DNA of 64,000 nucleotides from Bacillus sp. SKDU12 (GTDB lineage Bacteria > Bacillota > Bacilli > Bacillales > Bacillaceae). The position numbers and the translations under genes are program-made. Where the stretch lies: the NCBI RefSeq assembly GCF_010093085.1, contig NZ_MSRC01000017.1:62001-126000 (forward strand), in the 5' to 3' direction. The notes beneath the pieces were generated by a model that made no database searches, had not been told where the DNA came from, and worked only from the letters and a program-made list of their open reading frames with translations. Positions 9,716-63,528 of this stretch are shown piece after piece; position 1 is the stretch's first letter, and the number at the start of each line of letters is the position of its first letter.

Positions 9716-9923
9716 TTTGACACGTTTGTGCGAGCAACATATGAAAGGCGGCGAATACCGGATGCCGGCTGCATCGCATGAAAAGTGCAAATATTCTTAC
9801 AGGATTGAAAACCAAAAACAAAATACCATACATAACAAACGGCGCGATCGAAAGGAATGATGTTCTGCTGTAAGGCCATCATTTCTCTCAGCCTTCCTGT
9901 GGAAAGTGCTGCAATACTGGAAA
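9716..9923 (-). pseudogene. possible scrap of a membrane transporter gene (yxlH position)
   Basis: Read on the minus strand, this gap encodes SSIAALSTGRLREMMALQQ and, after one frame change, SIAPFVMYGILFLVFN, which looks like two consecutive helices of a permease. From memory, B. subtilis 168 has a major-facilitator gene, yxlH, between yxlG and katX; no such intact gene is present here. T-rich DNA can mimic membrane helices by chance, so the assignment is tentative. Confidence 0.35.
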
Positions 9924-27999: not shown

Positions 28000-28207
28000 C
28001 AGAATAAAACCTCCCCTAATGTATGGATGGGGAATATTTCGGGATGCTAAAGGAATTCCCTGCAAGATAGGAGTGTTTTTGAAAAGATCATTCTTTATAC
28101 CTGTAAAAAGTGCTTTAAGGGCGGACAGGTCGAGTATCGTTATTGATTGAATAAAAAAAGCCCGAATAACGCCAAAATAAACAAAAACCCGCAAATGGGG
28201 TGCAGTC

Positions 28208-29937: not shown

Positions 29938-30780
29938 TCAGCGTGCAACTGACCGCTGGTAAAACCGCTGAATATGCATGGCGATATAACATAATTCTTT
30001 TTCAGGAAACTCAAAGCCGTACTCCTTCTTCACAAATGTGCCGATGCTTAGGGCACACAGGAAGGCATCTTTAAACCTCTCTTTAATAATGTCGATCATT
30101 TCCGCATCCAGCTCGTAAATGGATTCGCCCGCTTTGATATGCTGAATGGCAAAGCGGAGATGGGTCACAAGCCGTTCATAAGAGATGGTATCCTCCACAA
30201 TATTGATCGACAGCTGAATTTCAATAATCCCGATAATATCACGGATCATCGTTGTAATATCAAGCGTCTGTGTCATATCCCCTGCATTGTTTCTTGCTGT
30301 ATGGATGTGCATGGCGATATTGCCGATTTCATCATCGGGAATGTGAATCCCTGTTTTCTCTTTAATCAGGGCTCTGGCCCACAAGCCGATCTGGAATTCC
30401 TTCGGGTAAAGAACTTTGATCTCATTTAACAGCGGGTTTTTAATGATCATTCCCTTGCTCAGGCGTTCGATCGCAAAGGAAAGATGGTCTGAAAAGGCGA
30501 CGTGAATTCGCTCGTTGATTTTGATGTTCAGCTCTTTTTCAGCATGGGAAATAATTTGCGCGGACATCTGAATATGATCCTCCGGCAATGTTTCTAAAAT
30601 CTCTTCGAACTGCTTATAGTCATCTGTATCTTTTCTGACAAACGTTTTTTCTATTTTTGACTGGTCGACAATATCATTCTTCCTTTTGTCGAACGCGATT
30701 CCTGCACCTAAGAGAATCTTCTCTGTATTTTGATCCTTTACGACGATAGCATTATGATTTAAAATTCTTTTAATTTTCAT
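29938..30780 (-). CDS. sacY: BglG-family transcriptional antiterminator SacY
   Basis: RNA-binding antiterminator of 280 residues. It has an N-terminal CAT RNA-binding domain (1-55, with [10 protein letters not shown] and [13 protein letters not shown]) and two PTS regulation domains with conserved histidines ([27 protein letters not shown]). It binds the RAT hairpin in sucrose-inducible leaders, mainly sacB for levansucrase, and stops terminator formation. SacX inactivates it by phosphorylation when sucrose is scarce. All key motifs are intact, in contrast to the ruined paralogue sacT at 61900-62563. Confidence 0.94.
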
Positions 30781-30833: not shown

Positions 30834-32213
30834 TTATTCTGTCTCTTCTTTAAACCCGAGAAACAATGTAGCTATAAAAGCAGAGACGGCTGCGATCAAA
30901 ATACCGATTATATAATGAACAAAATTGGCGGCGCCGAACGGCAGCACGATCGAAATCATCGGAATGCCTGTCAGCCCATAGGAATTCGAAACGACATGAG
31001 CTGCAACCACGTATGCTCCGCCAATAGAGCCGCCGATGGCGGCTCCGATAAAGGGACGGATCAGTTTGACATTTACTCCGAATATAATCGGTTCTACAAT
31101 GCCTAAAAACGCGGTCAGGGAAGCGGGGAGCGCAATTTTCTTCAAATTTGATTGTTTTGTTTTGAAGAAAACCGCAAGGCCCGCTCCGCCTTGAGCCACA
31201 TTCGCCATCGACCATATCGGCACTAAAAAGTTCACGCCGACATGCGGATCAGCAAGCAGCGTTGCCTCAATCGCATAAAAGCTATGATGCAGGCCAGACA
31301 GAACGATAGTGGAGTAAATGCCGCCGAACAGGGCTCCGGCAACAATGCCGGCGTGATCATAAATATAGACAATCGACTGTGTCATGATCTGACCGATGAT
31401 GGACGCAACGGGATTCATCATTATCAGTGAGAGGCACCCTGTCACCATAACTGTAATAAAAGGAATGATGACGACATCAAGCGACTTCGGCACAATCAAT
31501 TTTAAGAGCTTCTCAATTTGGCTCATGACATAAACGGAGAGAAGAATCGGTATAATGGAACCCTGATAGCCCATCAACGGAATATGCAGCCCTCCCATGT
31601 CTAAGAAAGCGGGAGTTTTACTGCCGAGCATAGATGGGTCCAGCAAATCAGGATGCGTCAGGAGCCCTGCCAGCACTGCCCCTAAATAAGGGTTGCTGCC
31701 AAATTGCCGTGCGGCACTGAAGCCGACCAAAATCGGCAGCAAAATAAAGGCTGTGCTGGACACGAGATCAAGTATTTTGATCCACGGACTTCCCGCTGCG
31801 AACCAGTGAAACACCTTAATCATCCCGATCAGCCCCATGAGCAGGCCGCTTGCCGTTATTGCAGGGATGATCGGCACAAAGATATCGGATAGTGTTTTTG
31901 CAAATGCTGCGACAGGGTTCAGCTTTCGGCTGGCCTTTTTCTGTTGAACAGGTTCTTTAGAAGGCATGGCCTCCCACATCTGAACGACTTCTTTATATAT
32001 TTTATGAACGACGCCCGCTCCAAAGATAATCTGGAATAGCCCATATCGAAAAAAGGTGCCCTGTACGCCTTGCAGGTTTTCTATGGCTTGTATATCGATT
32101 TTCGTCTCGTCTTTTATATTAAAACGAAGACGAGTCGTACAATGGCTGATGCTGATAATATTGCTTTTTCCTCCTGCGAGGAGCACTAGTTCTTTTGCGA
32201 TTTCTTTTTGCAA
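30834..32213 (-). CDS. sacX: sucrose PTS-type sensor permease EIIBC SacX
   Basis: Protein of 459 residues with an EIIB domain at the N terminus (Cys25 in ISHCTTRLRF) and a ten-helix EIIC domain with GIVEPIIFGVNVKL. It acts as a negative regulator of SacY and as a low-efficiency sucrose transporter. It starts at TTG 32213 after AAAGGAGG. It is encoded just upstream of sacY with a 53-bp gap. With sacP absent from the normal locus in this window, it may be the only sucrose-type PTS permease left nearby. Confidence 0.93.
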   Translation of the reverse strand: MQKEIAKELVLLAGGKSNIISISHCTTRLRFNIKDETKIDIQAIENLQGVQGTFFRYGLFQIIFGAGVVHKIYKEVVQMWEAMPSKEPVQQKKASRKLNPVAAFAKTLSDIFVPIIPAITASGLLMGLIGMIKVFHWFAAGSPWIKILDLVSSTAFILLPILVGFSAARQFGSNPYLGAVLAGLLTHPDLLDPSMLGSKTPAFLDMGGLHIPLMGYQGSIIPILLSVYVMSQIEKLLKLIVPKSLDVVIIPFITVMVTGCLSLIMMNPVASIIGQIMTQSIVYIYDHAGIVAGALFGGIYSTIVLSGLHHSFYAIEATLLADPHVGVNFLVPIWSMANVAQGGAGLAVFFKTKQSNLKKIALPASLTAFLGIVEPIIFGVNVKLIRPFIGAAIGGSIGGAYVVAAHVVSNSYGLTGIPMISIVLPFGAANFVHYIIGILIAAVSAFIATLFLGFKEETE

Positions 32214-32619
32214 GCAATCAAAACCTCCTTTGCAGAAGAAAAGTCGGCTTGTTTATCGTATCAAATGAAAAGTTGACAATCAAAGTGAAAAAAGTGAGAA
32301 ATACCGGCTGAAAATGACAAAACGTGCAGGAACAGCACAAAAAATGCCCGCATCGGTGACGGAGCATGAGAATAAGGGGGTATCCATGGCGCCGTTATGA
32401 GTCCAACACGAAAAGAAGAGTTGAAAATGCCCTGTTTTTAGGCATTTATACTCCCTTTGCATCATTGGGGCTTGCCTGCCTGCCAGTCACAATCCCTCCA
32501 TATGTGGTGATAACTGTAATAACGTTCATTTTATGATGTTCATCGCTTGATAGCAATAGTAGAAAAAGCCTGCGGGTAAAATGGGAAAAAGGTTGCGTAT
32601 GGTTGTTTTTTTGAATAAA
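32214..32619. other. sacX-epr intergenic region
   Basis: About 400 bases without a credible gene. On the minus strand TTGTCA with ATAAAC 17 bases downstream (near 32255-32275) is a weak candidate sacX promoter. DegU is known to act here in B. subtilis, but I could not pick out its sites. Confidence 0.35.
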
Positions 32620-41775: not shown

Positions 41776-43259
<1,484 letters not shown>

Positions 43260-43294
43260 ATGTCAGAGATTGCAAATGTGCTATAAAAGGAATT

Positions 43295-43396
43295 TTGGAA
43301 CAGCATGAACAACAAATTCAAAGACGCGACTTCCTCAAATGAGGAGCGTTGGCGGGGGCGGCCGTTGAGATGGGCTTAGACGGTCTGTCTCAACGC
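43295..43396 (+). pseudogene. ywbN: 5' scrap of ywbN/efeB (Tat-exported haem peroxidase)
   Basis: A TTG at 43295, five bases after AAAGGA, opens a frame reading LEQHEQQIQRRDFLK, then a TGA, then GALAGAAVEMGLDGLS. My recollection of the B. subtilis YwbN signal is EQIHRRDILKWGAMAGAAVAIG, so the twin-arginine motif RRDFLK and the hydrophobic core are recognisable, with Trp changed to a stop. About 35 codons remain of a gene that normally has about 415. In 168 the order is thiE-ywbL-ywbM-ywbN-ywbO-ywcA, so a deletion removed the iron-uptake genes ywbLM, most of ywbN, and ywbO. Confidence 0.72.
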
Positions 43397-43404
43397 CGCC
43401 GCCC
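43356..43404. repeat. long imperfect inverted repeat at the thiE-ywcA junction
   Basis: GGGCGGC-CGTTGAGA pairs with TCTCAACG-C-CGCCC around a 17-base loop. It is GC-rich and not followed by a clear T run. It may act as a transcript end for ywcA or thiE, or be a by-product of the deletion that created the ywbN scrap. Confidence 0.55.
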
Positions 43405-43420
43405 ACATCCTGCTCTCATT

Positions 43421-61574: not shown

Positions 61575-61952
61575 ATGAAACGTTTGCTTGTATCGTTACG
61601 GGTGTGGATGGTCTTTTTGATGAACTGGGTGACGCCGGACAGAACAACTTCGGCTGCTGCGGTCTATTCGGCTCAGCGTACATACCAAAGAAAAGCGGCT
61701 ATGCAGGCCGCGGGACTTGTTTCGTTTTATGAATGGCGGATGGCGGTGAATGACGAAGAAAAGCAGAAAGCAAAAGCCGCCGCGCTTTATAAAAGAAGAT
61801 GTTTGCAAGCTTTCAAGGAATCACCAAAACAGGAGAGAGCTGGCCCGCACCTTTACATGGAAGCAAACTTCAGTCAAAAGCAAATTGGCGAAAGGGATCG
61901 CCTCTTGAAGAAGGCGCTCTTAAGAAAAGAAGTGGTCAGGAAAAAATCATAA
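61575..61952 (+). CDS. ywcI: YwcI, small basic protein with a run-on C terminus
   Basis: Protein of 125 residues. One hydrophobic N-terminal helix (about 4-19, [16 protein letters not shown]) precedes a basic, alanine-rich helical region. No function is known. I recall the 168 protein as about 100 residues. Here the frame appears to run past the natural end into the damaged start of sacT, since the last 20 residues ([13 protein letters not shown]) lie where sacT codons begin in another frame. GGAGGGATG precedes the ATG 61575 by about eleven bases. Confidence 0.7.
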
Positions 61953-62563
61953 TGGGGCCGGGAATTGCTTTTCAAAAAAAGAAAAATGATCTCATCCCTA
62001 TAAATAAAATGGAAAATGAAAAGTTCAAATAGATCCGACGCAGCTGGAGAGCATAAGAAATAGCTGAGAATATCATCAGCGATGCAGAAGGAGAGCTCGC
62101 GGCGCCGCCGAGCGATCACATTTATAGTCGATCGAAAGAGTTGGCAGAATAAATTGTAAAGCGCTTTTTAAAAAGGGGCCTATAGGTGATCGGTCACGTA
62201 AAACAAACATGGGGACGTGTCCCTGACTGAAGATTGATGGATTCAGCGGAAGCATACGACTAATAAAATGATAGAGAAAATAAATACATACTTTAATCGA
62301 AAGGAGGATGAAAATAGCCCTTCCTATCAATGCCTTGTCACGCATTTGCGATACGCGGTCAGTCGGTTGGAATCAAATGAAGCGCTCCATCATATGGTCG
62401 AGGAGGAGATGCTTTATTTCATCCAAAATAAGTATTCATTTGCCTATCAATGTGTGCTAAAGCTGGCGGAGTTTTGAAAAATGAATATCAATTATGTTTG
62501 CTGGTACCCGAGGCCGGCTAAATCACGCTGCGTGCCCAGCGTCTTCAAGATCTCTCGGAATAA
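61900..62563 (+). pseudogene. sacT: decayed sacT, antiterminator of the sucrose operon
   Basis: Successive frames recover pieces of the SacT antiterminator. [17 protein letters not shown] belongs to the CAT RNA-binding domain and is followed by stops. [62 protein letters not shown] and [12 protein letters not shown] come from the PRDs. After a one-base loss EYQL and QRLQDLSE finish at 62563. At least two internal deletions, several stops and frameshifts are present, including loss of most of PRD1. No functional antiterminator can result. SacY at 29938-30780 is the intact relative. Confidence 0.9.
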
Positions 62564-62806
62564 CCGTTTATACTTGCAGGGAGTGATCTCTGGAAGTTTC
62601 TTTATTGATCGGGATTCAGCGTGTAGCCATCATATACGATATATTTTGTTTTTTCAAAGCGTACTGTTCAACCTTTTGCAATGCTTGTTTTTCCCGCTTT
62701 CTTAGATGATTAAGCATATTATAGCGATGGTATTGTAAAGTATTTCGCAATACCATGTTGCGAATTTTTGTCTATATGTTTTATCAAACAGCATAATTGA
62801 AAAATG
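62564..62806. other. DNA between the sacT ruin and the sacPA promoter
   Basis: AT-rich sequence without a gene. A hairpin with arms ATGGTATTG and CAATACCAT lies at about 62727-62755 and may be an old sacT terminator or a protein site. Confidence 0.4.
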
Positions 62807-62807
62807 G

Positions 62808-62836
62808 TTGACGAAAGCGATATCATAATTTATGAT
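62808..62836 (+). promoter_or_regulatory. orphan sacPA promoter with cre site
   Basis: TTGACG (62808-62813), a 17-base spacer and TATGAT (62831-62836) form a strong SigA promoter. CGAAAGCGATATCA (62812-62825) differs from cre at one fixed position and lies between the boxes. Confidence 0.75.
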
Positions 62837-62861
62837 AAGAGCGTATTCAATCTGAATAAGC

Positions 62862-62958
62862 GGGATTGTAACTGGTAAAGCAGGCAAGACCTAAAATTCG
62901 CGTACATGAAAAAGGATCGCTGTACCCTTTATTCATTGGCGAATTTTAGGTCTTTTTT
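62862..62958 (+). promoter_or_regulatory. orphan sacPA leader: RAT antiterminator and terminator
   Basis: GGGATTGTAACTGGTAAAGC followed by AGGCAAGACC (62862-62891) matches the RAT element bound by SacT and SacY. It overlaps the left arm of a terminator, AAGACCTAAAATTCGC (62886-62901), whose right arm is GCGAATTTTAGGTCTT (62939-62954) before six T's. This mutually exclusive RAT/terminator layout is the same as in sacB and sacPA. The structural genes that it controlled are missing. Confidence 0.85.
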
Positions 62959-63050
62959 GTTTGCATAAAAGATAAAATGCCTTATTGAGCTTCTGAGGGG
63001 ATTAGCGCGGATACGGCTATGTTTTTGCTTTTTCACTGGAGTGAACGGGC

Positions 63051-63155
63051 TTCAACGCATTTGTGGAAATCTTTATCGATAAACGGGAAGAGGTCTTCGG
63101 TGTGAGATACTTTTCTTTCCCGGGAAATGACGGCGAGTTCGACAGAAAAATCTGA
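63051..63155 (+). pseudogene. sacA: C-terminal scrap of sacA (sucrose-6-phosphate hydrolase)
   Basis: The frame reads FNAFVEIFIDKREEVFGVRY and SFPGNDGEFDRKI before a stop. It fits the C-terminal beta-sandwich of family 32 glycosidases, where a VEIFIDxGxEVFxxR pattern is usual. The remaining 440 or so residues of SacA and all of the permease SacP are absent between the leader terminator and this scrap. Confidence 0.6.
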
Positions 63156-63279
63156 ATTTAGCGTCGTGATTTGGACGTTTATGCAGAAAATACTCCTATT
63201 TTCTTATGTGAAATCCGTGTCATATGTGCTATTCTTCAACGATAACCTACTATTTTTTACTGTAAAAGGAGTTGTTTTC

Positions 63280-63528
63280 TTGAATATACATGAGCAGAAG
63301 ATAACACCAGAATGTTTGGAAAAGGCAGCGGACCAAGTTGAAGATAAGCGTGAAGAGTATAAAGATGTGCTGCTGCAGATGAAAAAAATGCTGGACGAGG
63401 CAGCGCCGTACAGTGAAACGGCAGAAGTTCTTACGCGAGCATATGAACAAATGAAAGAATATTCACTTTTTGTTCAGTCGATTGAAGCATTTTTGAGGAA
63501 ATCTGCGAATAACATGAAAATCAAATAA
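63280..63528 (+). CDS. ywdA: YwdA, small uncharacterised protein
   Basis: Protein of 82 residues (MNIHEQKITPECLEKAA start, KSANNMKIK end), highly charged and predicted all helical, possibly coiled coil over 10-75. The function is unknown. The start is TTG 63280, eight bases after AAAAGGAG; the frame stays open upstream to 63127 through the sacA ruin. In B. subtilis it follows sacA, possibly in the same transcript. Here it would depend on its own promoter or on read-through of the sacPA leader. Confidence 0.85.
   Translation: MNIHEQKITPECLEKAADQVEDKREEYKDVLLQMKKMLDEAAPYSETAEVLTRAYEQMKEYSLFVQSIEAFLRKSANNMKIK

Follow-up and report, generated by a model that had tools for sequence, protein, structure and literature searches.

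A decayed sacT-ywcJ-sacP-sacA-ywdA locus that retains the sacP leader in a subtilis-clade Bacillus

When the genes of an operon decay and the RNA switch that controlled them stays behind, is the switch kept by selection or is it decaying with the rest? We have examined this question in a window, i.e., the whole stretch of 64 kb analysed here, of a Bacillus genome in which the initial annotation had described a sucrose operon reduced to its leader. That annotation correctly spotted a relic, but its interpretation went beyond what the sequence allows, so that it is only partly supported. We consider it probable that the locus is an ordinary relic of reductive evolution of sacT-ywcJ-sacP-sacA-ywdA, in which SacY may still allow read-through into ywdA.

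The genome (G000) is a draft of 3.46 Mb in 26 contigs from the subtilis clade. The window comprises bases 62001-126000 of contig 9. Its flanking genes assign it to the B. subtilis/spizizenii cluster, where it sits on a relatively long branch whose exact position is weakly supported. The relatives named in the comparison are B. spizizenii TU-B-10, Bacillus sp. N13C7, B. tequilensis, B. inaquosorum, B. mojavensis, B. halotolerans and B. atrophaeus. The order vpr-ywcI-sacT-sacP-sacA-ywdA-thiD is common to 11 relatives and ywcJ, where found, lies on the opposite strand between sacT and sacP; in B. atrophaeus an extra gene separates sacA from ywdA. All 11 have an intact sacT (276 aa) and an intact sacP, and sacA was found in 10 by script, the remaining one (G005) being also open when the frames were read. 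A literature search on sacPA pseudogenes returned no papers.

The lineage has a shrinking genome (3.46 Mb vs about 4.2 Mb), and the 64 kb window corresponds to some 75 kb of the B. subtilis 168-like genome G035, with further gene losses. Stretches of the 168-like genome are absent at window positions 28109-28141, 43259-43419 and 9774-9921; going by the translations, what is missing resembles tyrZ-ywaE, the iron genes ywbLMN (efeUOB) and one MFS gene.

What is left of the operon genes

Table 1. Features of the decayed locus and of the sacX-sacY region in the window.
Feature	Position	Strand	Description
sacY antiterminator	29938..30780	-	Intact, 280 aa, 95% identity to 168-like genome G035
sacX, sucrose EIIBC-type sensor	30834..32213	-	Intact, 91% over 459 aa to 168-like genome
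RAT-like sequence in sacX leader	32467..32496	-	Read from sequence
ywcI-like ORF	61575..61952	+	ORF list and alignment with relatives; 3' end now enters eroded sacT 5' sequence
sacT remnant	61900..62626	+	Start eroded, many deletions and frameshifts
ywcJ N-terminus remnant	62639..62720	-	Remainder of ywcJ deleted
Sigma-A type promoter TTGACG-17-TATGAT	62808..62836	+	Hexamers identical in 11 relatives
cre-like site CGAAAGCGATATCA	62812-62825	+	13/14 match
RAT antiterminator element	62862..62891	+	One G-to-A change at 62870
Intrinsic terminator	62886..62958	+	-29.7 kcal/mol, z -7.9; overlaps RAT
sacP 5' coding end	62976..62997	+	About 20 nt; sacP RBS and ATG deleted
sacA 3' remnant (GH32 C-terminal tail)	63051..63187	+	Indels; stop TAG -> CAG
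Conserved element upstream of ywdA	63190..63279	+	About 90 bases; probably own promoter/5' UTR
ywdA	63280..63528	+	Intact; 82 aa from a TTG start; closes the ancestral sacPA-ywdA operon

The sac genes that are open in the 11 relatives are relics in the window (Table 1), which bears out the description of an operon reduced to its leader. The sacT gene, described as wrecked, retains fragments of the CAT_RBD (E 2.7e-8) and PRD (E 1.3e-8) domains and differs from the consensus by 17 gap runs and 2 insertions. Nearly the whole of sacP has been deleted at the locus, as the initial annotation had it, and the end of sacA recognized downstream is a true homology that extends over about 45 codons rather than the 35 or so first given. 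These losses of sacT, sacP and sacA were thus rightly listed, while the deletion of ywcJ between sacT and sacP had been overlooked. A functional sacPA operon was not found at the locus, since intact sacP and sacA are missing downstream of the leader. As a side observation, the lost stop codon joins the reading frame of the sacA tail to that of ywdA (133 codons, 63127-63528); this frame is probably not translated from its first ATG, because no good ribosome site lies upstream of that ATG.

The genome being a draft, an assembly or sequencing artefact over a really intact operon could be suspected. We have discarded it as extremely improbable, because the locus is deep inside a contig of 360 kb and sacT carries many independent substitutions and indels; moreover, the closest match to SacP in the genome is SacX, at 56%. 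Relocated copies of sacP or sacA, which the initial annotation had proposed to look for, were rejected as well: the genome-wide search found no SacP orthologue and, among the four GH32 genes of the genome, the one of the scrB family belongs to a cluster with a LacY-type permease (see below).

Structure of the leader and its rate of change

Aligned with the sacP leaders of the relatives, the leader is 87-92% identical to all 11 of them, and the elements first described in it (promoter, cre-like site, RAT and overlapping terminator) are all present. It occupies the same position as the SacT-regulated leader of the B. subtilis sacPA-ywdA operon, has in common with it the promoter hexamers, the cre-like site and the RAT with its overlapping terminator, and is likewise followed by ywdA; it differs from it in the wrecked sacT, in the absence of ywcJ, sacP and most of sacA, in the deletion of the sacP RBS and start codon, and in 7 changes at otherwise invariant columns. 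The cre-like site scores as those of the relatives, a cre match by itself being weak evidence, with 14 matches of at least 13/14 within the window. The change in the RAT affects a column on which the 11 relatives all agree, although A is found there in some other natural RATs. The fold of the element is that seen in B. subtilis (-9.0 vs -8.8 kcal/mol), a hairpin interrupted by two internal loops that retains the conserved side CAGGCAARACC, and its core CAGGCAAGACC is the same as in the SacY-regulated leader of sacB. RAT and terminator overlap and are therefore mutually exclusive forms. In a focused search the Rfam family RF03530 (bglG-cis-reg) matched positions 62849-62976 over the full length of the model (E 3.4e-4) with 34.1 bits, under the gathering score of 80 bits; the Rfam search at the gathering threshold gave no match.

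In order to estimate whether selection had spared this switch, as was first suggested, we counted the changes of the window at columns that are invariant in the 11 relatives. The leader has changed at 7 of 135 such columns (RAT plus terminator, 4/89) and the sacT relic at 26/341 in codon positions 1+2 and 6/114 in position 3, the two classes of sacT positions changing alike in the window lineage (p=0.53). The corresponding values for positions 1+2 are 4/132 in ywdA and 0/233 in the intact thiD. The rate of the leader is hence indistinguishable from that of the sacT relic (p=0.43) and different from that of thiD (p=0.0008). Among changes private to a single species, the window accounts for 7 of 18 in the leader vs 16 of 115 in the flanking genes (odds ratio 3.9, p=0.017), and 26 of 48 in sacT (p=3e-7). 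The leader is also the most changed among the relatives, with 16 differences from B. atrophaeus vs 8-13 in the others. With a rate close to that of the dead sacT and unlike that of thiD, and with an excess over the flanks, the leader seems to have been released from constraint together with the genes; the first proposal, of a switch spared by selection, is not clearly supported.

The folds give a somewhat different picture. RAT and terminator have suffered no indel and both structures are kept, whereas the same number of random changes placed on the consensus kept both as observed in 1% of the trials. Simulated drift at rates of 4.5-7% without indels retained the folds in 2-8%, and with the indel rate of sacT in nearly none. 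These simulations are post hoc, having been designed after the result was seen, and about 7% of the 99-nt segments of the sacT relic show no more events than this, for which reasons we take fold retention as a hint only of residual constraint on RAT plus terminator. Still, with the folds kept, no indel and such a low simulated retention, passive drift by itself may not fully account for the leader. We regard it as unlikely that selection kept the leader after the loss of sacT, sacP and sacA, whether to let SacY control ywdA only or to serve as an independent RNA that binds SacY.

The initial annotation had also suggested that the leader RNA could be a decoy titrating SacY; the leaders from which it would withdraw SacY are those of sacB and sacX. 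For a decoy it may be said that the RAT fold is intact, and so are SacY and the RAT of sacB in this genome. However, all the relatives have the same leader, which would bind the antiterminator there as well; the window copy shows no sign of strengthening or of higher conservation, and one of its RAT columns, constant elsewhere, has changed; and repression through the cre-like site would be expected on good carbon sources. We have found no sign in the sequence in favour of this role and consider it very improbable.

ywdA, SacY and the remaining sucrose genes

The next gene after the leader is ywdA, about 320 bases 3' of it, and the terminator scan found no further terminator in between. Its expression under sucrose, raised in the initial annotation, is possible, but would be inherited rather than new wiring, because ywdA is already the third gene of the B. 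subtilis sacPA operon (PMC6148471, PMC4796004), where expression data group it with sacP and sacA (PMC4796004). The element upstream of ywdA, TTATGTGAAA..CT.TGCCATCTGTGCTATTCTTC..AAAAGGAGTTGTTTTC, shows high conservation across 15 other Bacillus genomes, the window copy having a few changes. It accompanies ywdA also in B. atrophaeus, where sacA is not adjacent, suggesting that ywdA probably has its own promoter. We know of no function for ywdA.

As first reported, SacY is intact in the window. sacX, sacY and sacB-levB are all retained in the genome, as is the RAT of sacB, and the leaders of sacB and sacX still precede intact genes, unlike the window leader. The intact CAT_RBD antiterminators that remain are GlcT and SacY (named from context), which appear to be the only intact ones of the BglG family: SacT is a remnant and no LicT orthologue was found in the genome. 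Among the matches listed for G000 there is none to a BglP- or TreP-like PTS. A cognate antiterminator is therefore available in SacY; published reports disagree on the strength of its action on sacPA (PMC6148471). With SacT and LicT missing and the reports split, SacY-dependent read-through at the window leader is plausible.

The leader could then be selected for as the region through which SacY controls a sucrose operon of a single gene, ywdA. This would agree with an intact ywdA under some codon constraint (4/132 vs 4/32, p=0.047), with the folds of RAT and terminator kept and no other terminator before the gene, and with the reported ability of SacY to act on sacPA (PMC6148471). On the other hand, the substitution rate of the leader is indistinguishable from that of the sacT relic, and the conserved element that travels with ywdA perhaps makes the leader unneeded. 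We consider such a one-gene operon quite unlikely.

Sucrose could enter this organism by another route. At G000:C25:141012-149068 (L078:3513-11569) we have found a cluster that encodes a LacI regulator, a three-gene ABC transporter, a LacY-type permease, a scrB-family GH32 and a fructokinase-like PfkB. The permease scores 568 bits against the galactoside permease model and 456 against that of the oligosaccharide MFS family, and the GH32 scores 504 bits and has the motifs NDPNG/RDP/EC. The set of LacY-family permease, GH32 and fructokinase is what we take to be the csc type of non-PTS sucrose cluster. With the csc type clusters it shares the LacY-type permease, the scrB-family GH32 and the PfkB fructokinase, here beside a LacI regulator; it differs in containing also a three-gene ABC transporter. 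It is a candidate non-PTS cluster for sucrose or oligosaccharides and could take the place of sacPA in sucrose use. The cluster is also present in G005, with DNA about 94% identical, but no kinase was seen there. Since G005 also has an intact sacPA, the cluster is not by itself the cause of the sacPA loss, which it may have made tolerable. An association between SacP loss and the LacY cluster over 44 genomes was rejected, being not significant (3/4 vs 12/40, p=0.11) and with both systems present in G005. A plasmid origin of the cluster was rejected too, the match on a Priestia plasmid reaching no more than 74%.

Decay of an antitermination-controlled operon

Taken as the relic that we favour, the locus is read as follows. 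sacT lost constraint and ywcJ, sacP and most of sacA were deleted, leaving behind ywdA and the sacP leader with its promoter, cre, RAT and terminator. The promoter would still fire, and as long as no antiterminator is bound to the RAT most transcripts would end at the terminator. After the loss of SacT, the only sucrose antiterminator left would be SacY, and the read-through that it allows would reach ywdA. The leader probably drifts for the most part as a passive remnant, at most under weak constraint via ywdA. Sucrose use is probably covered by the secreted levansucrase and levanases and by the LacI-ABC-LacY-GH32-fructokinase cluster.

This looks like ordinary gene decay of a well-known operon and not like a new regulatory RNA. 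It provides a clean example of how an antitermination-controlled operon decays, with the genes lost first and the cis-acting switch lingering, and a caution that such a lingering leader should not be termed conserved without a test of its rate. If the leader is used, ywdA would be the only gene left under its control. In this lineage sucrose use may have moved to a non-PTS route, with the levansucrase branch of the SacX/SacY circuit being kept.
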